Part shown: one piece after another, positions 681-20,876 of the stretch | Numbering within the stretch: the first letter of the stretch is position 1 | How the letters are laid out: each line of letters begins with the position of its first letter | Assembly (NCBI GenBank): GCA_014802445.1 | Contig: JAAVCF010000008.1 | Span: 1 to 64,000 of the forward strand | Direction: 5' to 3' | DNA: 64,000 nt | Origin: Bacteroides sp. | GTDB taxonomy: Bacteria; Bacteroidota; Bacteroidia; Bacteroidales; Muribaculaceae | The notes under the pieces: generated by a model | Databases searched by the model: none | What the model was told of the DNA's origin: nothing | Seen by the model: the letters and a program-made list of their open reading frames with translations, nothing else | Translations under genes and position numbers: made by a program

Positions 681-2258
681 TCAGAACTCGCTGGAGAAAT
701 GGAAACGGATTTTTGGGAAGTCCTGACGGGCCATAGTGAGGACATAGCCTGAGTCGGCCAGGAATACGTCACGGCCTTCGACGTCGACAGCCATAAACTG
801 GTGTTTACGCTTCTTGAATGCGGCGAGGGCTTCGGGGTCGTCACTCTCAATCCAGCAAGCCTTATAGAGCGAGATGGGCTCCCAGCGGCAGCTTGCGCCA
901 TACTCGTGGAGGAGGCGATACTGAATCACCTCAAACTGGAGCTGACCGACTGTGCCGATAATCTTGCGGCCATTGAACTGATTGGTGAAGAGCTGAGCCA
1001 CGCCTTCGTCCATGAGCTGACGGATGCCCTTTTCAAGCTGCTTGGCCTTCATGGGGTCAGTGTTCTCAATGTATTTGAACATCTCAGGGGAGAAGCTGGG
1101 GAGGCCTTTGAAATGAAGGTTTTCACCGGCGGTGAGAGTGTCGCCGATTTTGAATGAGCCATTGTCAGGGAGGCCCACAATGTCGCCGGGGAAAGCCTCG
1201 TCGACAATGTTTTTCTTCTGAGCCATGAATGCCGTGGGGGCGGCAAACTTCATGGTTTTGCCAGAGCGGATGTGTTTGTAACCAGCGTTACGCTCAAACT
1301 TACCCGAGCAGACCTTTACGAACGCTATGCAAGAGCGATGGTTGGGGTCCATGTTGGCATGAATCTTAAAGACAAAGCCTGTGAACTGCTCCTCCTCAGG
1401 CTTCACCTCACGCTCCACGGCCTCAATGGGGCGGGGTGCGGGGGCAATCTCCACGAAGCAGTCAAGGAGCTCCTTGACGCCGAAAGTGTTGAGCGCCGAG
1501 CCGAAGAACACCGGAGCGAGTTCACCCTTGAGATACTCCTGCGGGTCAAACTCAGGGTAAACCCCCTCGATGAGTTCAAGGTCCTCGCGGAGCTTTGCGG
1601 CATCCGTCTCGCCCACCTCGGCATCAATGCGCGGGTCATTGACATTGTCAATTTCCACACGCTCGCTCACCTTCTGCTTGTCGGGCTTGAAGAGGTCGAG
1701 AGAATTTTCATAGATGTTGTAAACGCCCTTGAACTTGGCGCCGATGTTGATGGGCCAAGAGAGGGGGCGGACCTTGATTTTGAGCTCGCTTTCCAGTTCG
1801 TCGAGAATGTCGAACGGGTCACGGCCCTCGCGGTCAAGCTTGTTGACGAAGATAATCACGGGAGTGTTGCGCATGCGGCACACCTCCATGAGTTTACGAG
1901 TCTGCTGCTCGACACCCTTCGCAACGTCGACAACGATGATTACGGAGTCAACGGCTGTGAGAGTTCGGTAAGTGTCCTCGGCGAAGTCCTGGTGACCCGG
2001 AGTGTCGAGGATGTTGATTTTATAGTCGCCGTAATTGAAGCCCATGACCGAAGTGGCCACCGAGATGCCACGCTGCTTCTCAATCTCCATCCAGTCAGAC
2101 GTGGCCGTTTTCTTGATTTTGTTAGACTTAACTGCGCCGGCAATGTGGATTGCGCCGCCAAAGAGCAGCAGCTTTTCAGTGAGAGTGGTTTTGCCGGCAT
2201 CAGGGTGAGAGATGATGGCAAAAGTGCGTCGGCGTTTTATTTCGTCAGTGAGGGCCAT
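681..2258 (-). CDS. prfC: Peptide chain release factor 3
   Basis: RF3 is a translational GTPase that removes RF1 or RF2 from the ribosome after termination. At 525 residues it has normal length. The G domain is intact: P-loop SHPDAGKTT near residue 17, DTPGHQDF for switch II, and NKLD for guanine specificity. The ATG at 2258 gives the typical start with [15 protein letters not shown]. It has its own promoter in the gap and in the end of uvrA, so it is transcribed separately although uvrA lies upstream on the same strand. Release factor 1 is also encoded in this window (62642-63751). Confidence 0.97.
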
Positions 2259-2324
2259 GCTTCAAAATGGTAAGATAAGTTAAAGAATAGCGAGGAAAAC
2301 CGGCATGCGGCTCCAATCAGGGCG

Positions 2325-2355
2325 CAAAGTTAGTAAATAGTCATGAGTTTGTCAA
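2325..2355 (-). promoter_or_regulatory. Promoter of prfC
   Basis: On the minus strand TTG (2355-2353) is followed after exactly 20 nt by TAACTTTG (2332-2325), the Bacteroidota sigma-ABfr arrangement. The upstream element lies inside the last codons of uvrA. The predicted leader is about 60 nt. Confidence 0.65.
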
Positions 2356-5184
2356 CTCCTCGCGAATATACTCCGCCGTGGGCGAGTTGCCGCGGGCAAT
2401 CTCCTCCGGGGTGCCGGAAGCCAGAATCAGACCACCGTTTTTGCCGCCTGCAGGGCCCATGTCGATGATGCGGTCGGCACACTTGAGCACATCCAGATTA
2501 TGCTCGATGACCAGAACCGTGTTGCCACGGTCAACCAGACGGTTAAATACACCCATGAGCACCTTGATGTCCTCGAAATGGAGACCCGTGGTGGGTTCGT
2601 CGAGGATGAAGAGCGTGCGACCGGTGTCACGCTTGGCCAGCTCCGTGGCCAGTTTGACACGCTGATTCTCGCCACCGCTGAGAGTGGACGACGGCTGGCC
2701 CAACTTTATATAGCCCAGGCCGATGTCCTGAAGCACCTTGAGCTTATGGAGAATGGTGGGGACGGCCTCGAAGAACTCCACGGCCTGATTGATGGTCATG
2801 TCAAGCACGTCGGCGATTGACTTGCCCTTGAAGCGCACCTCAAGAGTTTCGCGATTATAGCGCTTTCCGCCGCACGTTTCGCACGGCACGAGGACGTCAG
2901 GGAGGAAATTCATCTCAATGGTACGATAGCCGTTGCCGCCGCACGTCTCACAGCGGCCTCCGCCGACATTGAACGAGAAACGGCCCGGCTTGTAGCCGCG
3001 CATCTTCGCCTCAGGGAGGTTCACGAAGAGCGAGCGGATGTCAGTGAAGAGGCCGGTGTAAGTGGCAGGATTTGAGCGCGGGGTTTTGCCCAGCGGCGAC
3101 TGATCAACGGTTACCACCTTGTCAATATTCTCAATGCCCAGAATCTCCCGATAAGGGAGCGGGGCAGCGTGGGAACGATAGAAATGGGCCGAGAGGATGG
3201 GCTGGAGAGTGCCGTTGATGAGCGACGACTTGCCGCTGCCGCTCACGCCGGCCACACACGTCAATGTGCCCAGCTCAAGAGAGAGGTCAACATCCTTCAG
3301 ATTATGGCCCGACGCCCCCTTCAGCTCCAGAAGCTTGCCATTGCCCGGACGGCGCACCGCGGGGACCGGGATTGACTCACGACCATTGAGATAAGAAGAG
3401 GTGAGGGTGGAGGTGGAGAGCATCTCGGCGGGAGTGCCGCTGAACACAATCTCGCCCCCCTTGCGTCCGGCCTTGGGGCCGACATCGACAATATAATCAG
3501 CGTCGAGCATCATGTCCTTGTCATGCTCCACGACGATAACCGTGTTAGAGGCATCGCGCAGGCGCTTGAGGGAATTGATCAGGCGGCGATTGTCGCGCTG
3601 ATGCAAACCGATTGAAGGCTCGTCGAGGATATAGAGCACATTGACCAGCTCAGAGCCGAGCTGAGTGGCCAGACGGATGCGCTGACTCTCGCCACCGCTG
3701 AGAGTGGCCGAATTGCGGTCAAGCGACAGATAGTCAAGGCCCACATCGACAAGGAAGCTCAGGCGAGTGCGAATTTCCTTGAGAATCTCAGAGGCGATGA
3801 TGCGGCGCGACGGGTCGAGCAGGTCCTCGGCATGACACACCCATTCAAGGAGGTCACTGATGTCCATGCGGGTGAGGTCGCTGATGTTCTTATCGCCGAT
3901 GAAGAAATGGAGCGCCTCGCGGTTGAGGCGCGCGCCGTGACACTCCGGGCAAACCGCGCGCGAGAAGAACTGGCCGCTCCACTTCTGAGCCGCGGCCCCC
4001 GCCTCCTCGGCCTGCTGCATCTCGATGTACTTGACCAGGCCCTCATAGGTGAGGAAGTAATTAGAGGTGGAGAGAGTGTCGGTTTTGAGCTGCAGGCGCT
4101 CAGTGGTACCGTCGAGAATGTCGCGCAAAGCCTCCTCGGGGATGTCGCGCAGCGGAGTTTTGAGCGTGCAGCCATACTTTTCACAGATGGCGGCAATCTG
4201 CCAGAACACCAGCGAATTTTTCTGCTTGCCCAGCGGCACAATTCCCCCCTGAGCGATGGAGAGCGACATGTCAGGCATAATCTTCTCACGGTCAACGATG
4301 TTGACACGTCCCAAGCCCTTGCAGCGCGGGCAAGCACCCTGCGGCGAATTGAACGAGAAATTGTGAGGAGCGGGCTGGCGGTAGGATATGCCGCTCTCAG
4401 GGTCCATGAGGTGCTGGGAATAGTGGGCGACGGTGCCGGTGTCGGCATCGAGCACCATGAGCTGCTTCTCGCCCTGGCGGAGCGCAGTGTCGACAGTGTC
4501 ATAGAGCCGCTCGCGGTCCTTTTCAGACGGTTTGAGGCGGTCAATGACAATTTCGATGCTATGGTTCTTATAACGGTCAAGCTTCATGCCGTAGACAATC
4601 TCACGCATCTCACCATCCACCCTCACATGGAGATAGCCCTTTTTGCGCAGAGTTTCAAAGAGTTCCTTATAATGTCCCTTGCGGTTTCGCACCACCGGGG
4701 CGAGGATGCTTATGCGGCGATTGGCATACTTGTCGAGGATGAGGCTGACGATGCGTTCACGAGTGTACTGCACCATGGGGAGGCCGGAGACATAGCTGAC
4801 GGCTGTGGCCACACGGGCATAGAGCAGGCGGAGGAAATCGTAAATCTCAGTGGTGGTGCCGATTGTGCTTCGCGGATTGCGGTTGATGGTTTTCTGCTCA
4901 ATGGCGATGACGGGGCTCAGGCCGGTGATTTTGTCAACATCAGGGCGCTCCAGATTGCCCAGCAGATTACGGGCATAGGCCGAGAAAGTTTCAATGTAAC
5001 GGCGCTGACCTTCGGCAAAAATGGTGTCGAAGGCCAGTGACGACTTACCGCTCCCGCTGAGGCCGGTTATGACGGTTAGTTTATTGTGGGGAATGGTGAC
5101 GTCGACGTTCTTGAGATTGTTGACGCGCGCGCCGTAGACCTCCAGCGAGGTTTGCGGCGCGGCGTTGTCAGAGACGTTTGTCAT
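2341..5184 (-). CDS. uvrA: Excinuclease ABC subunit A
   Basis: UvrA is the damage-recognition ATPase of nucleotide excision repair; it loads UvrB. The 947-residue product has two ABC modules with Walker A motifs GLSGSGKSS (residues 41-49) and GVSGSGKSS (about 645), two LSGGE signature motifs, and CxxC pairs of the zinc modules (CPRC, CPEC, CETC twice). The ATG at 5184 overlaps the stop of the upstream transglycosylase gene as ATGA, so translation is probably coupled. It is the third gene of an operon headed by a secreted surface protein, an unusual place for uvrA; Bacteroidales often carry several UvrA paralogues. Confidence 0.96.
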
Positions 5185-6116
5185 TTTATCCAGTTGTGAT
5201 TATAGACAGAGTGATGTTTCTTGTTGCGCGAAAGCGACTCATCGGTGGGGATGCGGACCTTGTAGACCTTACCGGACTTGTTGGGGAGGGACTTATTGCG
5301 AATCCAGGGATTGTGTTCGCGCAGGAGATAATAGGTGGTGCCATTCTGGCGCGCCCAGTCGGCCCAGCTGTCGACGGGAGTGTCGACCTCCACAATCCGG
5401 TAGTCATAAGGCTGATAGAGCTGGTCAGAGTCAAGGCGGAAGCCATAGTCAGAAGGATTTTCGAGAATCATCTTCATGGCAATGAGGCGGAAGATATAGC
5501 GCATGGTCTCCTCGGGGAGCCAAAGCTCATAGGCCGAGCCGACACCCTGAGCCGAGAGCTCGGACGAGATGCGCCCCTGACCGCAATTATAGCTTGCGGC
5601 GGCACTCTCCCAGTTGCCGAAGCGATTGTAAGCGTTCTTGAGATAGCGGCAAGCGGCCTCGGTGGACAGCTCGGGGTCAAAACGCTCATCGACATAGTCA
5701 TTTACCTCCAGGCCATACTCCCTGCCCGTGGCGGGCATGAACTGCCAGAGGCCGGCCGCTTTTGCGCCCGACACGGCGCGGGGATTAAGCGTTGACTCAA
5801 TGCAGGCAAGATAGAGAAGGTCATGAGGCACACCGTTTTTCTTCAGGATGGGAGCCATGAGCGGGAAGAGACGATTGGCGCGCTTGATGGTCAGGAGAGT
5901 GGAGCCGTGGGTGTAGGCCATGGCAGTGAGCTCGCGGTCAAGGCGCTCAAACATGTCGGTTTGCGACAAGTCGATTTTCTGGCCCCCGAAAGAGGTGTGG
6001 GCCGGGATGCGCGGATTGAAAACCTCTGAAAACTCAGGAGATTCCGCATGGACTGACACAGAAGAGGCGCCGGCCGCCACGGCCAGCAGGATATTGAAAA
6101 GGATGGATGGTTTCAC
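5181..6116 (-). CDS. Secreted lytic transglycosylase (MltD-like)
   Basis: The 311-residue protein cleaves the MurNAc-GlcNAc bond of peptidoglycan. A signal peptide ends near SVHA. The SLT domain has catalytic Glu107 in CIEST, then GLWQFMPATG and ASYNCGQGR, all typical of family 1 transglycosylases. The C-terminal part ending KVYKVRIPTDE looks like one LysM-type carbohydrate-binding module. The start is GTG (6116), overlapping the stop of the upstream gene as GTGA. The start is firm because the signal peptide begins exactly there and no nearby ATG replaces it. Confidence 0.9.
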   Translation of the reverse strand: MKPSILFNILLAVAAGASSVSVHAESPEFSEVFNPRIPAHTSFGGQKIDLSQTDMFERLDRELTAMAYTHGSTLLTIKRANRLFPLMAPILKKNGVPHDLLYLACIESTLNPRAVSGAKAAGLWQFMPATGREYGLEVNDYVDERFDPELSTEAACRYLKNAYNRFGNWESAAASYNCGQGRISSELSAQGVGSAYELWLPEETMRYIFRLIAMKMILENPSDYGFRLDSDQLYQPYDYRIVEVDTPVDSWADWARQNGTTYYLLREHNPWIRNKSLPNKSGKVYKVRIPTDESLSRNKKHHSVYNHNWIK

Positions 6117-7429
6117 TTGTAATTGATGATGTTAATGTCGCCAGATAGATTGTAGTGTTTGCCATCGGCGCCTCGGGCCTTGATGACATAGTAATAAACG
6201 CCGGCAGGCACGAGCTTGCCGCCATATTTGCCGTCCCAGCCCTGCGAGGGGTCCTTGAGAGTGATCATCTTGCGGCCATTGCGGTCAAAGATGTGACACT
6301 CAAAGCTCACAATTGACTTGAAGCTGACACGCCACTCATCGTTGACCCCCTCGGAGGCACCCGGCGAGAACGCGTTGGGGCAGAGCAGAGCCGACTCACC
6401 GATGCTCACCTGATAGACATCGCCGAGATACTCGCAGGTGCCGTCGGCATTGTCGCAGACAAAACGCACGTAGGTGGTGCCGAGCTCATTGAAGGTGTGG
6501 GTGTAGTCAGTGTCATTGACGCGCAGCTGGATGTCGTCGAAATCAGGATAGGAGGAGAACTGCCATTCGGTGAAGATGGCGCCATCCGTCACCGAAGCGC
6601 GAAACTCCACCTCGGCCGGGGCGCTTCCGCCAAGGTCGTCGGCAGAGGAGCCGCCTGACTGATTCTCAGCGGCCTCGTTGAGGCGCGTGGCGGAAGTGTG
6701 GGCGCTGACGGCTGTGGGGGGGTAAGAGGGCGAAGTGACCGATTCGGCCCGGTTCCAGGCAGCGAGAAAGCGGTCGCCCGTGAGAGTGAAGGAGGTTTCA
6801 CACAGCGGCGCGGGAACCCGCAGCGACGACTCGGCACTTTCCAGCACCTCAGTGACCTGACGGGGCACGAACTGGTCGGCTTCCTCACTCCATTCCAGTG
6901 AAGAGTAGCTCACGGAAAGCTCGCGGGAGAGTGTCATCTGCCGTCCATTGATGGAATAGTAGAAGATGGGCGCGGCATTGCCTGAGAGAGCGAGAGTGGT
7001 GAAATCGCAGTCACGGTTAGAGCCCATCATCAGAGCGTCGAGCGCAAGATGATGGCGCGAATAGTCCACCACCCAAAAATAGAAGCGTTCGTCGCCATCC
7101 TCGATGATGTAGCCCATGTCGCCCTCAAGAGCGTCGAGAGTCCACTCCGAGCCGGAATGTGACACGGAGCCGACGGTTTCGGCATAGCCACCGCCGAGGT
7201 TGCTGTAGCGCAGCCATGACACTGAGGCTGAAGGAGAAGAAGCCGTGTAGACGGCGCGGACGCCGGTCATCCCATCGGCTACGAAGATGCCGCTGTTGAG
7301 CCCCGCCGAAGCCTGCGCCTCGAAATGAAGCACAGACGGGGTTCCTGACGGAGAGGTGATGACAACCGAGCCGGCGCGGACGCACGGCGCGGCTAAAAGC
7401 AGAGCAAAGCCTAACGTGAATTTTTGCAT
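6113..7429 (-). CDS. Secreted protein with gliding-motility type C-terminal domain
   Basis: From the ATG at 7429 the product is 438 residues with a clear signal peptide (MQKFTLGFALLL, cleavage near CVRA). The middle has beta-rich PKD-like segments without recognised catalytic motifs. The last 85 residues, from LCPNAFSPG to the end, match the gliding-motility-associated or CHU_C domain (FDRNGRK, WDGKYGG, PAGVYYYVI), known as a type B signal of the type IX secretion system. An upstream in-frame extension to 7636 is rejected because a promoter box lies between the two starts. The gene heads the operon with the transglycosylase and uvrA. Its function is unknown; a surface structural role is inferred. 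Confidence 0.85.
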   Translation of the reverse strand: MQKFTLGFALLLAAPCVRAGSVVITSPSGTPSVLHFEAQASAGLNSGIFVADGMTGVRAVYTASSPSASVSWLRYSNLGGGYAETVGSVSHSGSEWTLDALEGDMGYIIEDGDERFYFWVVDYSRHHLALDALMMGSNRDCDFTTLALSGNAAPIFYYSINGRQMTLSRELSVSYSSLEWSEEADQFVPRQVTEVLESAESSLRVPAPLCETSFTLTGDRFLAAWNRAESVTSPSYPPTAVSAHTSATRLNEAAENQSGGSSADDLGGSAPAEVEFRASVTDGAIFTEWQFSSYPDFDDIQLRVNDTDYTHTFNELGTTYVRFVCDNADGTCEYLGDVYQVSIGESALLCPNAFSPGASEGVNDEWRVSFKSIVSFECHIFDRNGRKMITLKDPSQGWDGKYGGKLVPAGVYYYVIKARGADGKHYNLSGDINIINYK

Positions 7430-17282: not shown

Positions 17283-18476
17283 TTACTTGTTGAATTTGGC
17301 GCCGCCTTTCACGCCGCCTTTCACGCCTCCGCCCATCGAGAAGATGTTCTGGTCATAGCTGACGGTTTTGTGTTCCTGCTCGCGCTTGCGCTTGAGTGCC
17401 AGTTTCACCAGCTCGTTCATGAGCTCGTTAAAGGGGATGCCTGAGGCTTCCCAGAGGTAGAACGATAGGGAGCCGGGGATGGTGTTGATTTCGTTAACGT
17501 AGATGTCGTCAGTGTCGGCGTTGACCATCACGTCCACTCGGCTCACGCCGTGGCATGAGAGAACTCTGAATGTCTCGCCGGCAAGATGCTGAATCTTCTT
17601 GGTCATCTCGTCGGTGAGGTCGGCGGGGAAACGTTTCTGCGAGGCCTGCATGCCCTTGCTGCTTTTGCCGCCACCCATGTACTTATCCTCATAGGAGAGG
17701 ATTTCGCCGCTCTTTATAGGCTCTTCGAGGATTGAGGTGCGATAGTCATCGCAGTCGCCCAGCACGGAGCAGTTGATTTCCTTGAGGTTCTCCACCATAT
17801 CCTCCACGATGATACGGGTGGAATAACGCGCGGCATCCTCCACACGCTCCATAAGCTGCTGACGGTCAACAGCGCGACCGATACCGACAGAGGAGCCGAG
17901 GTTGGCGGGCTTCACGATTACGGGGTAGCCGATTTTGGTCTCCACCTTCTCGATAAGCTCGTCGCGGTGGGCAAACCATTCCTTGTCAGTGAACCACACA
18001 TAGTCCACCACGGGGATGTCACACGCCTGGAGAATCATCTTCATCGTAATCTTGTCCATGCCGTTTGCACTGGCCAGGGTGTTGCAGCCGGCAAAGGGGA
18101 TGCCGATGGTTTCAAGCAGACCTTCAAAGATGCCGTCCTCACCGTTCGAGCCGTGGAGCACGGGGATAACCACATCAATCTTAGTCAGGACATTACTGCC
18201 GAAAACGGACTTTTTGCGGCGATAGAGGTTATAATCGCCGAATTCGGGATTCATATACACCTCGGTGCACTTGTCGAGCAATGACTTCATGTCGCGATAG
18301 TTAGCCACATTCATCAGCTCCGGGCCGGTGAACCATTTGCCCTGCTTGGTGATATAGACGGGGGTCACGTCATAGCGATCGCGGTCAATGGCCGCCATGG
18401 CCTGATTGGCTGAAATCACTGATATCTCGTGTTCGGTGGAGCGTCCGCCGAAAAAAACTGCGATGTTGGTTTTCAT
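17283..18476 (-). CDS. ddl: D-alanine--D-alanine ligase
   Basis: An ATP-grasp ligase making D-Ala-D-Ala for peptidoglycan. Recognisable motifs are FGGRSTEHEISVISA, VLHGSNGEDGIFEGLLE, FAGCNTLASANGMDK, VKPANLGSSVGIGRA, VDVMVN and NEINTIPGSL. At 397 residues it is longer than most Ddl enzymes because of a C-terminal tail with a tandem VKGG unit, coded by two identical 12-bp repeats (17301-17324). It follows the MurF-like gene by 9 nt, so the genes for making and using D-Ala-D-Ala are adjacent. Confidence 0.95.
   Translation of the reverse strand: MKTNIAVFFGGRSTEHEISVISANQAMAAIDRDRYDVTPVYITKQGKWFTGPELMNVANYRDMKSLLDKCTEVYMNPEFGDYNLYRRKKSVFGSNVLTKIDVVIPVLHGSNGEDGIFEGLLETIGIPFAGCNTLASANGMDKITMKMILQACDIPVVDYVWFTDKEWFAHRDELIEKVETKIGYPVIVKPANLGSSVGIGRAVDRQQLMERVEDAARYSTRIIVEDMVENLKEINCSVLGDCDDYRTSILEEPIKSGEILSYEDKYMGGGKSSKGMQASQKRFPADLTDEMTKKIQHLAGETFRVLSCHGVSRVDVMVNADTDDIYVNEINTIPGSLSFYLWEASGIPFNELMNELVKLALKRKREQEHKTVSYDQNIFSMGGGVKGGVKGGAKFNK
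17301..17324 (-). repeat. 12-bp tandem repeat in the ddl 3' end
   Basis: Two identical 12-bp units in a row, in frame, code for the GGVKGGVKGG part of the Ddl tail. A multiple-of-three unit allows copy number to change without a frameshift. Confidence 0.7.
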
Positions 18477-18485
18477 TACTGGTTA

Positions 18486-20099
18486 CTACTTAAAAGTATC
18501 AGGAAGGTCGTTTTCGTAAAGCACGGTGTCGCCGGGTGCGAGCATCGTGGCCAGCAGTTGCTGGGCTTCGGCAAAGTTCTCAACCTTGCGGATGGCCGTG
18601 GCGTCCATGCCGCCGCGCTCGGCGCCTTCGGTGATGGCGTCGCGGTTGGCACGGTTCACAATGATGGCTATGTCGGCACAGCGGGCTATCTTCTCGCCGA
18701 ACTGTGCGTTGAGTTCATACTGCTTGTCGCCGAGCTCCACCATGCCGGGGGTCACCACAATGCGCTTGCCGCCGGTGAGTCCGGCCAGCACGTCGAGCGC
18801 CATTGCCGAACCCATGGGGTTGGAGTTGTAGGCGTCATCGATGATGGTGATTCCGCCGGGTGTGCGCTTGACGTTGAGGCGGTGTTCCACCTGCTCAATC
18901 TGTTCCACGGCGTAGCGGATTTTATTGTCCTCCACGCCCATCTCGCGGGCCATTATAACGGCCGCGGCAAGGTTGGAGATGTTGCATTCGCCCACCAGGT
19001 GGGTGCGCAGGCTGATAGAATAGCCGTCAGGGCCGTTGAGGGTGAAGCTTGTGCCTGAGGGGGTGTAGGCAATGTCGGTCACGTGCCATGATGAGCCGGG
19101 AACGTTGTTGACAGTGTAACGCTCGGTCTTGACGCCGCTGACGGTGCAGTCGGCAATGAGGGGGAAGTCGTTGTTGAGCACGGCCACACCGTCGGAGGGG
19201 AGGGAATCAACGAGTTCAAACTTGGTGGCCCGGACATTCTCAATTGTCTTGAACGATTCAAGATGCTGGGGACCTACGGCGGTCACGATGGCCGCAGTGG
19301 GGTGAACAAGGTCGCAAATGTCCTTGATGTCACCGGTCTGCTTGGCGCCCATCTCCACGATGAACACCTCATTATAAGGCTTAAGATACTCGCGGATGGT
19401 GCGGATTACGCCGAGGGTTGTGTTGAAGTTGCCCGGTGTCATCAGCGTGTCGTATTTCTCGGAGAGGATGCGGTGTAGATAATGCTTTGTGCTCGTTTTG
19501 CCGTAAGAACCAGTTATACCGATGATTTTGAGGCCGGGCATCGAGGCGAGGATGCGCTCGGCGTCGTGGCGGAAGCGGGTGTTGATTGACCGCTCCACAG
19601 GTTCGAGAATCACCACGGCTGCCATGGTGATGAGGTGGGAGCCGCAGTAGAGGGCAAGCGCCGTCATGGTGGTCACAAACAGCTTCCAGATGTAACCGTA
19701 ACCTATGCCCCAGGCCAACAGCGCGCCGAGAATGATGATGACTGACAATGCGGCCATTACGCTATAGAGGCGCCAGGCGCGCTTGGTCATCACCAGAGGC
19801 TTCTTATACTTCATCCTCAGCAGGCTTACAATGCCGCAAAGTGACACAATCAGCACCAGCGCCATTGACACCACGGGGGTGCTCAAGATGGAGAGTCCTG
19901 CAAGAAACACGCCTATTGCCACAAGCCGAAGCGTCGAGGTGGTGTCGCCGCTCGCTTTCAGCCAACGGCGATAGCGGTCAATGCGGTAGCTGTTTTGCTG
20001 GAGCATGGTGAGGTCACGGCGCAGTTCCAGTGCCAGAAACACCAGCATGGCCAGCGCGGTGACCGAGAAGTATATGAGCTGAGGTAATGTTTGGTGCAT
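18486..20099 (-). CDS. Membrane-anchored MurF-like Mur ligase
   Basis: A 537-residue protein. Residues 1-165 hold about five membrane helices (5-24, 57-73, 75-94, 110-134, 138-164). From residue 185 on it is a Mur ligase: P-loop GITGSYGKTST (194-204), GNFNTTLGV, VEMGAKQTGDI, GPQHLESF, then IDDAYNSNPMGSAMA and GMVELGDKQYELN. These later motifs are those of MurF, which adds D-Ala-D-Ala to UDP-MurNAc-tripeptide. The usual MurF N-terminal domain that binds the UDP-MurNAc substrate is missing and replaced by the membrane part. Adjacent ddl supports a role in D-Ala-D-Ala addition; whether the substrate is soluble or lipid-linked is open. Confidence 0.85.
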   Translation of the reverse strand: MHQTLPQLIYFSVTALAMLVFLALELRRDLTMLQQNSYRIDRYRRWLKASGDTTSTLRLVAIGVFLAGLSILSTPVVSMALVLIVSLCGIVSLLRMKYKKPLVMTKRAWRLYSVMAALSVIIILGALLAWGIGYGYIWKLFVTTMTALALYCGSHLITMAAVVILEPVERSINTRFRHDAERILASMPGLKIIGITGSYGKTSTKHYLHRILSEKYDTLMTPGNFNTTLGVIRTIREYLKPYNEVFIVEMGAKQTGDIKDICDLVHPTAAIVTAVGPQHLESFKTIENVRATKFELVDSLPSDGVAVLNNDFPLIADCTVSGVKTERYTVNNVPGSSWHVTDIAYTPSGTSFTLNGPDGYSISLRTHLVGECNISNLAAAVIMAREMGVEDNKIRYAVEQIEQVEHRLNVKRTPGGITIIDDAYNSNPMGSAMALDVLAGLTGGKRIVVTPGMVELGDKQYELNAQFGEKIARCADIAIIVNRANRDAITEGAERGGMDATAIRKVENFAEAQQLLATMLAPGDTVLYENDLPDTFK

Positions 20100-20108
20100 G
20101 AGCGGGTA

Positions 20109-20876
20109 TTAACTGTTGAGGAAGCTGCGGACCACTGCCGCAAACTGTCCGGGATTATCGAGAAAGCTGTAATGGCCGCAGCCGGGAAAGCTCACCATGC
20201 CGGCGTTGGGAATCAGCCGCGCCATCTTCTTGGCATCGGCAAGCGGTGTGGCGGTGTCATTTTCGCCCCAGATGAGCAGTGTGGGGGCCTTGATGAGCGG
20301 CATCACGTGGCAAAGGTCTTCATTGACCACCTTTGACAGGATGCTGCGCATCATCGGCGAGGCTGCCAGATAATCGGAAGAGGCCGTCTTGGCCCTACGC
20401 GCCTCAATGCGCTTTTCGGCGCCCTCCTTGCCGTAGATGAGGCGCGTGAGGCGCTTCATGAGCTTGAAGGAATACACCTTTATATAATAGCGTAATGAAC
20501 GGCGCGGCTTCACCCCGGCGGCATCCACGAGGATGAGGCGCTTCACCGGATTGCGCGAAGCATAGAGAATGCCCACACGGCCTCCGAATGAGTGGCCGAG
20601 CAGGGTAGGGGCGGTGAGCCCCAGCTCTTTAACAAGGCTTTCAATGAGGCGGGTGTACTCCTCCACGCCCCAGCGTTGGGAAGGCTCGGCGCTGTCGCCG
20701 AAGCCGGGGAAGTCCACGTTGACCACACGGCAACCTTCGGCAAGACACACTCTCTCCACTGAGGCGAGAGTGGTGTGATTGCAGCCCCAGCCGTGCATCA
20801 GCACCACAGGCTGCCCGTTGCCGCCACTGTCAGTGTAGGCAAGTTTTACGCCCTCTATTTCCTTGATTTTTTCCAT
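20109..20876 (-). CDS. Alpha/beta hydrolase
   Basis: A 255-residue cytosolic hydrolase of the alpha/beta fold. Visible are the oxyanion region MHGWGCNH, the nucleophile elbow GHSFGGRVG (Ser near residue 96), the acid in WGENDTATP and the His in GCGHYSFLDNP. A cap domain lies in the middle. The substrate cannot be told. It is the first gene of the operon and lies 9 nt before the MurF-like gene, so an envelope-related ester or amide is a possible target (inference). The promoter box lies only 8 nt from the ATG. Confidence 0.85.
   Translation of the reverse strand: MEKIKEIEGVKLAYTDSGGNGQPVVLMHGWGCNHTTLASVERVCLAEGCRVVNVDFPGFGDSAEPSQRWGVEEYTRLIESLVKELGLTAPTLLGHSFGGRVGILYASRNPVKRLILVDAAGVKPRRSLRYYIKVYSFKLMKRLTRLIYGKEGAEKRIEARRAKTASSDYLAASPMMRSILSKVVNEDLCHVMPLIKAPTLLIWGENDTATPLADAKKMARLIPNAGMVSFPGCGHYSFLDNPGQFAAVVRSFLNS

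Follow-up and report, generated by a model that had tools for sequence, protein, structure and literature searches.

Which enzyme adds D-Ala-D-Ala to the peptidoglycan stem in a bacterium whose only MurF-like ligase, a racemase fusion apart, is preceded by membrane helices? In textbook accounts, MurC to MurF are soluble and act on UDP-linked precursors. In the stretch of DNA analysed here (the window, 64,000 nucleotides of a draft Bacteroides sp. genome of the family Muribaculaceae), one gene carries MurF motifs behind a hydrophobic N-terminal region. The first-pass annotation of the window had read its product either as the main MurF, working at the membrane and possibly on a lipid-linked precursor, or as a second ligase with another acceptor. 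We refer to the protein as TM-MurF, for membrane-integral MurF; its features and neighbors are listed in Table 1. The gene lies on the minus strand; over the same interval the plus strand has stops in frame.

Table 1. Positions in the window of the TM-MurF gene, its domains and motifs, and the two adjoining genes.
Feature	Position	Strand	Basis
Membrane-integral MurF (TM-MurF), 537 aa	18486..20099	-	ATG start, Pfam, TIGR01143, AlphaFold2
Five-helix membrane domain, residues 1-185, in place of the UDP-MurNAc-binding N-domain	19545..20099	-	AlphaFold2, pLDDT 95.4
Cytosolic loop 1 motif QxxxYxxxxxxxW (Q34 and Y38 in 74/74; W46 89%)	19962..20000	-	Alignment
Cytosolic loop 2 motif KKPLxxTxRxxR (T105, R107, R110 invariant; K99, K100 >90%)	19770..19805	-	Alignment
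Mur ligase central and C-terminal domains, residues 186-537	18489..19544	-	Pfam; solved-fold comparison
ATP-binding P-loop GSYGKT, residues 197-202	19494..19511	-	Alignment
DDAYNSNP motif, residues 421-428	18816..18839	-	Alignment
TPGMVELG motif, residues 450-457 (canonical MurF equivalent GDMxELG)	18729..18752	-	Alignment
YENDLPD C-terminal motif, residues 528-534 (canonical MurF equivalent VKGSR)	18498..18518	-	Alignments
ddl, D-Ala-D-Ala ligase, 9 nt downstream of TM-MurF	17283..18476	-	Domain and profile searches, synteny
Alpha/beta hydrolase, ends 9 nt upstream of TM-MurF	20109..20876	-	Pfam, synteny

Ligase half and membrane domain of TM-MurF

Pfam recognized Mur_ligase_M at residues 195–384 and Mur_ligase_C at residues 406–527 of TM-MurF, with no match N-terminal of residue 195. 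The murF profile TIGR01143 aligned over its positions 74–402 only, and the score of 229.8 bits falls below the curated cut-off of 288.6 bits. When the ligase half was compared with solved folds, the top nine entries were all MurF (Z 27.5–29.8). The MurF motifs named by the first-pass annotation (GKTST, GNFNTTLG, GPQHLESF, DDAYNSNP and GMVELGD) are all present, and GSYGKT, E249, G251, H279, K293, D421–D422, N425 and N427 show little or no variation among 74 homologues. Judged by its sequence, the ligase half is an intact MurF-type ATPase/ligase. Two C-domain motifs are shifted, from GDM to PGM and from VKGSR to YENDLPD, and these shifts might point to another donor or acceptor. Within the TM-MurF alignment ENDLPD hardly varies.

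The AlphaFold2 model, built with 73 homologues, has a mean pLDDT of 94.1 over the whole protein and 95.4 for residues 1–190 alone. It places membrane helices at residues 5–35, 56–69, 75–95, 106–129 and 136–152/154–185, with a short helix at 40–50, and contains no alpha/beta N-domain. The earlier view that membrane helices stand where the standard MurF N-domain is absent is thus borne out by Pfam, by the TIGR01143 alignment starting at profile position 74 and by the predicted structure. The two predicted cytosolic loops hold seven lysines and arginines each and the periplasmic loops none; these charge counts place the ligase domains of this predicted inner-membrane protein on the cytosolic side.

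Overall identity of the membrane domain to that of the window protein is just 14–51% among homologues. All 74 proteins compared, across phyla, carry the same seven residues in it (Q34, Y38, T105, R107, R110, E169 and A180), and K99, K100 and P167 are nearly invariant, as counted from the alignment; a strict fixed-spacing motif scan missed some homologues. Q34, Y38, T105, R107 and R110 sit where helices 1 and 4 are predicted to reach the cytosol, and E169 is on the last membrane helix, which continues into the ligase. This is probably the pattern of a functional site and not of an anchor, and the seven invariant residues suggest that the membrane domain is probably part of the acceptor site. 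Searches with the membrane domain returned no consistent family match in Pfam or NCBIfam and no significant match among PDB sequences. Against solved structures, no known fold was recognized (best Foldseek E 0.7, best VIA-align Z 5.0), which does not prove that the fold is new.

MurF-type genes in the genome and its relatives

Six Mur-ligase genes occur in the draft genome (27 contigs, 98.9% complete): MurC, MurD and MurE, all of which retain their N-domains, a MurF-alanine racemase fusion (G000:C3:21021-22301, L008), TM-MurF, and a weak member with a 459-aa frame (G000:C8:80197-80841, L006). The division cluster runs ftsI-murE-mraY-murD-ftsW-murG-murC, with murF missing from it. A genome search for a canonical MurF, the check proposed by the first-pass annotation, found none in the 98.9% complete assembly; the sole other MurF-like gene is the fusion, apart from which TM-MurF is the only candidate D-Ala-D-Ala-adding enzyme.

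Counting related genomes and not independent events, TM-MurF was found in 37 of 61 relatives and canonical MurF in 22, never both, with neither in two incomplete genomes. Across 197 Muribaculaceae genomes, each at least 90% complete, TM-MurF occurs in 163 and canonical MurF in 31, all of genus g17, with both in one (G525) and neither in four. Genus g17 (G017, L066 and 30 more genomes) is the sole Muribaculaceae genus found with canonical MurF. Within it, G464 carries only TM-MurF and G525 carries both types, which lets the switch be followed inside a single genus. Of the TM-MurF genomes sampled from other classes of the phylum, several of them single-contig, 75 of 75 lack both canonical MurF and the fusion; each has exactly one MurF-like gene at E ≤ 1e-50, which is TM-MurF. 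The phylum survey was bimodal, with full-length matches at E ~1e-111 or better and ligase-only matches at 1e-41 to 1e-54.

Scanning genomes turned up the architecture in Rhodothermota, Balneolota, Bacillota and Poribacteria, as well as in one MAG each labelled Chloroflexi and Thiomargarita; the last two may be binning errors. Among 28 named genomes (mostly MAGs, some isolates), canonical MurF stood beside TM-MurF in only four, the Bacillota Sporosalibacterium, Clostridium ultunense, UBA4845 and Sedimentibacter, in which TM-MurF may play a second role. The Bacillota loci with both MurF types are L157, L158, L159 and L160 (G412, G410, G414 and G413). Isolates of Salinivenus, Gracilimonas, Alteribacillus, Pseudalkalibacillus and Peptoniphilus have TM-MurF only, and within the same set the fusion was seen in a Chloroflexi MAG and some Bacteroidales. 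A Haloplasma MAG (G420, L161) carries two extra MurF-like genes beside its TM-MurF, at 2181..3605 (474 aa) and 4859..6235 (458 aa). A plasmid search for a full-length relative of TM-MurF gave ligase-half matches only.

The architecture is widespread and replaces canonical MurF in whole lineages. At least a few independent switches took place: in the Muribaculaceae ancestor, in genus g17, in other classes and in Bacillota lineages. Indirectly, this distribution argues strongly that the MurF step is carried out by TM-MurF. Gene content, architecture, conservation and mutual exclusion with canonical MurF together indicate that TM-MurF is very probably the organism's working, membrane-integral MurF, whatever the acceptor; the earlier proposal of a main MurF at the membrane is well backed by the absence of a canonical MurF here and by the mutual exclusion in relatives.

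The other reading put forward at first, in which TM-MurF would be a second ligase with another acceptor and the MurF half of the fusion the real MurF, draws on the fusion being present in this genome and most order relatives, on the four Bacillota genomes with both types and on the shifted C-domain motifs. The fusion is found alongside either MurF type, however, and since canonical-MurF genomes carry it too, it does not replace MurF; the 75 other-class genomes manage with neither it nor a canonical MurF. In inspected Muribaculaceae fusions the DxYNxD motif (DSYNSD) is degraded to DSYTSD or DSYTAD, and to DRFTN in this genome, while the fusions of G045 and G057 retain DYYNSD or DSYNSD. The MurF half of the fusion is possibly decaying, maybe kept for the racemase half, which is only a hint because G057, a TM-MurF genome, keeps DSYNSD; that half could in principle contribute to the MurF step in this genome and family. 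(The fusion's stretch of the assembly contains many scattered N.) We consider a second-ligase role very improbable, and for this genome it is disfavored by the 75 of 75 other-class genomes with TM-MurF alone. A draft in 27 contigs also invites the suspicion that annotation or assembly went wrong and that a frame error fused a membrane-protein gene with a murF lacking its N-domain. The recurrence of this full-length form in 163 Muribaculaceae genomes and in other phyla refutes this, and conserved motifs on both halves within one confident model reduce its probability to almost nothing. A recent local fusion of a membrane gene with murF is ruled out by the wide distribution.

The gene trio and its origin

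TM-MurF lies between genes for an alpha/beta hydrolase, left unmentioned in the first reading, and a Ddl, found where that reading had placed it. All three adjoin in nearly all Muribaculaceae loci examined, in most Bacillota loci and in the Poribacteria locus, and Rhodothermota keep the hydrolase–TM-MurF pair. A change of MurF type goes with a change of Ddl type: the Ddl proteins of TM-MurF genomes are 66–86% identical to the window Ddl and those of canonical-MurF genomes 25–33%, the latter class including G017, a Muribaculaceae genome with canonical MurF. Campylobacter jejuni has the same three genes, encoding MurF (Cj0795c), an alpha/beta hydrolase (Cj0796c) and Ddl (Cj0798c); there, Cj0796c is possibly essential, preliminary attempts to delete it failed, and an extra copy led to filaments in about one in ten transformants (PMC5530802). 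The conserved hydrolase is a strong candidate for an unrecognized peptidoglycan or cell-wall gene.

In a tree of ligase halves, all 108 TM-MurF sequences fell on one side of a fully supported branch, opposite canonical MurF and the fusion. In the full-length tree the Muribaculaceae copies formed a single group (100/100) on the same side as some of the Bacillota, and their grouping with Rhodothermota/Balneolota was rejected (p-AU 0.0056). The AU test thus rules out vertical inheritance of the Muribaculaceae copy with Rhodothermota/Balneolota, subject to the usual caution about long branches. Given the tree grouping and the AU rejection, a horizontal origin of the Muribaculaceae TM-MurF is likely. 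The trio probably entered the Muribaculaceae ancestor by transfer from a Bacillota-like source, and the incoming genes probably displaced canonical murF and ddl.

The acceptor and comparison with known systems

As the working MurF, TM-MurF would add D-Ala-D-Ala, which would come from the adjoining Ddl, to the tripeptide stem in an ATP-dependent reaction at the inner face of the membrane, with the ligase domains in the cytosol. In ordinary Mur ligases the N-terminal domain binds uridine and contacts the pyrophosphate (PMC6085368); here the five-helix membrane domain takes the place of that uridine-binding domain, and Q34, Y38, T105, R107, R110 and E169, together with K99/K100, most likely form part of the site for the pyrophosphate-MurNAc portion of the acceptor. 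There is a precedent in MurT/GatD, a Mur-type ligase that acts on lipid I and lipid II yet does not use UDP-linked precursors (PMC6085368), and by analogy a MurF without its N-domain may act on the lipid-linked form. With the uridine-binding part gone and conserved residues at the membrane surface, we lean slightly towards lipid-linked tripeptide (lipid I or II) over UDP-MurNAc-tripeptide as the acceptor, at roughly an even chance.

Almost as likely is that TM-MurF uses soluble UDP-MurNAc-tripeptide just as canonical MurF does, the membrane domain only tethering it near MraY or a shape or elongation complex so that the product is passed to MraY. The genome encodes normal MurE and MraY, from which UDP-MurNAc-tripeptide should be made, and the MurF of Helicobacter pylori, for which four N-terminal membrane helices are reported, was found in complexes with Csd5, CcmA and Csd7 (PMC9448923, PMC9507126). 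For anchoring alone, however, neither the loss of the uridine-binding domain nor seven strictly invariant residues would be needed, and five of those seven map to where helices 1 and 4 meet the cytosol. We found nothing decisive in the literature on UDP-MurNAc-pentapeptide pools in Helicobacter and Campylobacter. A plausible extension, at somewhat less than even odds, is that the pathway is reordered in a broad range of bacteria from several phyla: MraY would load UDP-MurNAc-tripeptide onto undecaprenyl phosphate first, and D-Ala-D-Ala would be added later, on lipid I/II at the inner membrane face, by TM-MurF with its membrane domain of a fold that has no solved match. Either the order of the pathway differs in TM-MurF bacteria, or their MurF recognizes its substrate in a new way.

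Here the final Mur ligase is a membrane protein that lacks a uridine-binding part and serves as the sole MurF of entire lineages, among them most Muribaculaceae, a dominant mouse-gut family. MurF inhibitors that occupy the uridine-binding domain should fail on these bacteria, and metabolic models may call MurF missing in them because TM-MurF scores below the cut-off of the NCBIfam model. On the sequence evidence assembled here, TM-MurF is a real, widespread and functionally constrained MurF variant, performing an ordinary step with an unusual architecture. A literature search, which covered few subscription journals, found no paper that describes this protein family or how widely it occurs, and none on the missing uridine-binding domain or on mutual exclusion with canonical MurF. 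The architecture itself is not wholly unknown, given an earlier report on H. pylori MurF.

According to PMC9448923, which cites Blair et al. 2018, H. pylori MurF has four N-terminal transmembrane segments. The protein has been described as essential, and it is reported as part of the helical shape complex (PMC9448923, PMC9507126). By description, it resembles TM-MurF in having several transmembrane helices before the ligase domains, four as against the five predicted here. The C. jejuni Cj0795c locus contains the same three genes as the TM-MurF trio in a different order. Canonical MurF (TIGR01143) shares the central and C-terminal domains, P-loop, E249, H279, K293 and DDAYNSNP with TM-MurF and is the best solved-fold match of its ligase half; TM-MurF differs in having a membrane domain for the uridine-binding N-domain, PGMxELG for GDMxELG and YENDLPD for VKGSR, in scoring under the NCBIfam cut-off and in forming a separate clade. 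The MurF-alanine racemase fusion (NF008897, Bacteroidota) shares the MurF-like module, but it keeps a MurF-type N-domain, has no membrane domain and forms its own clade. MurT/GatD shares the Mur-ligase core and was also matched in the fold comparison, at a lower similarity than MurF (Z 22.5–23.6 vs. 27.5–29.8). MurT/GatD amidates D-Glu with GatD, whereas the neighbors of TM-MurF are an alpha/beta hydrolase and Ddl, with no GatD adjoining.
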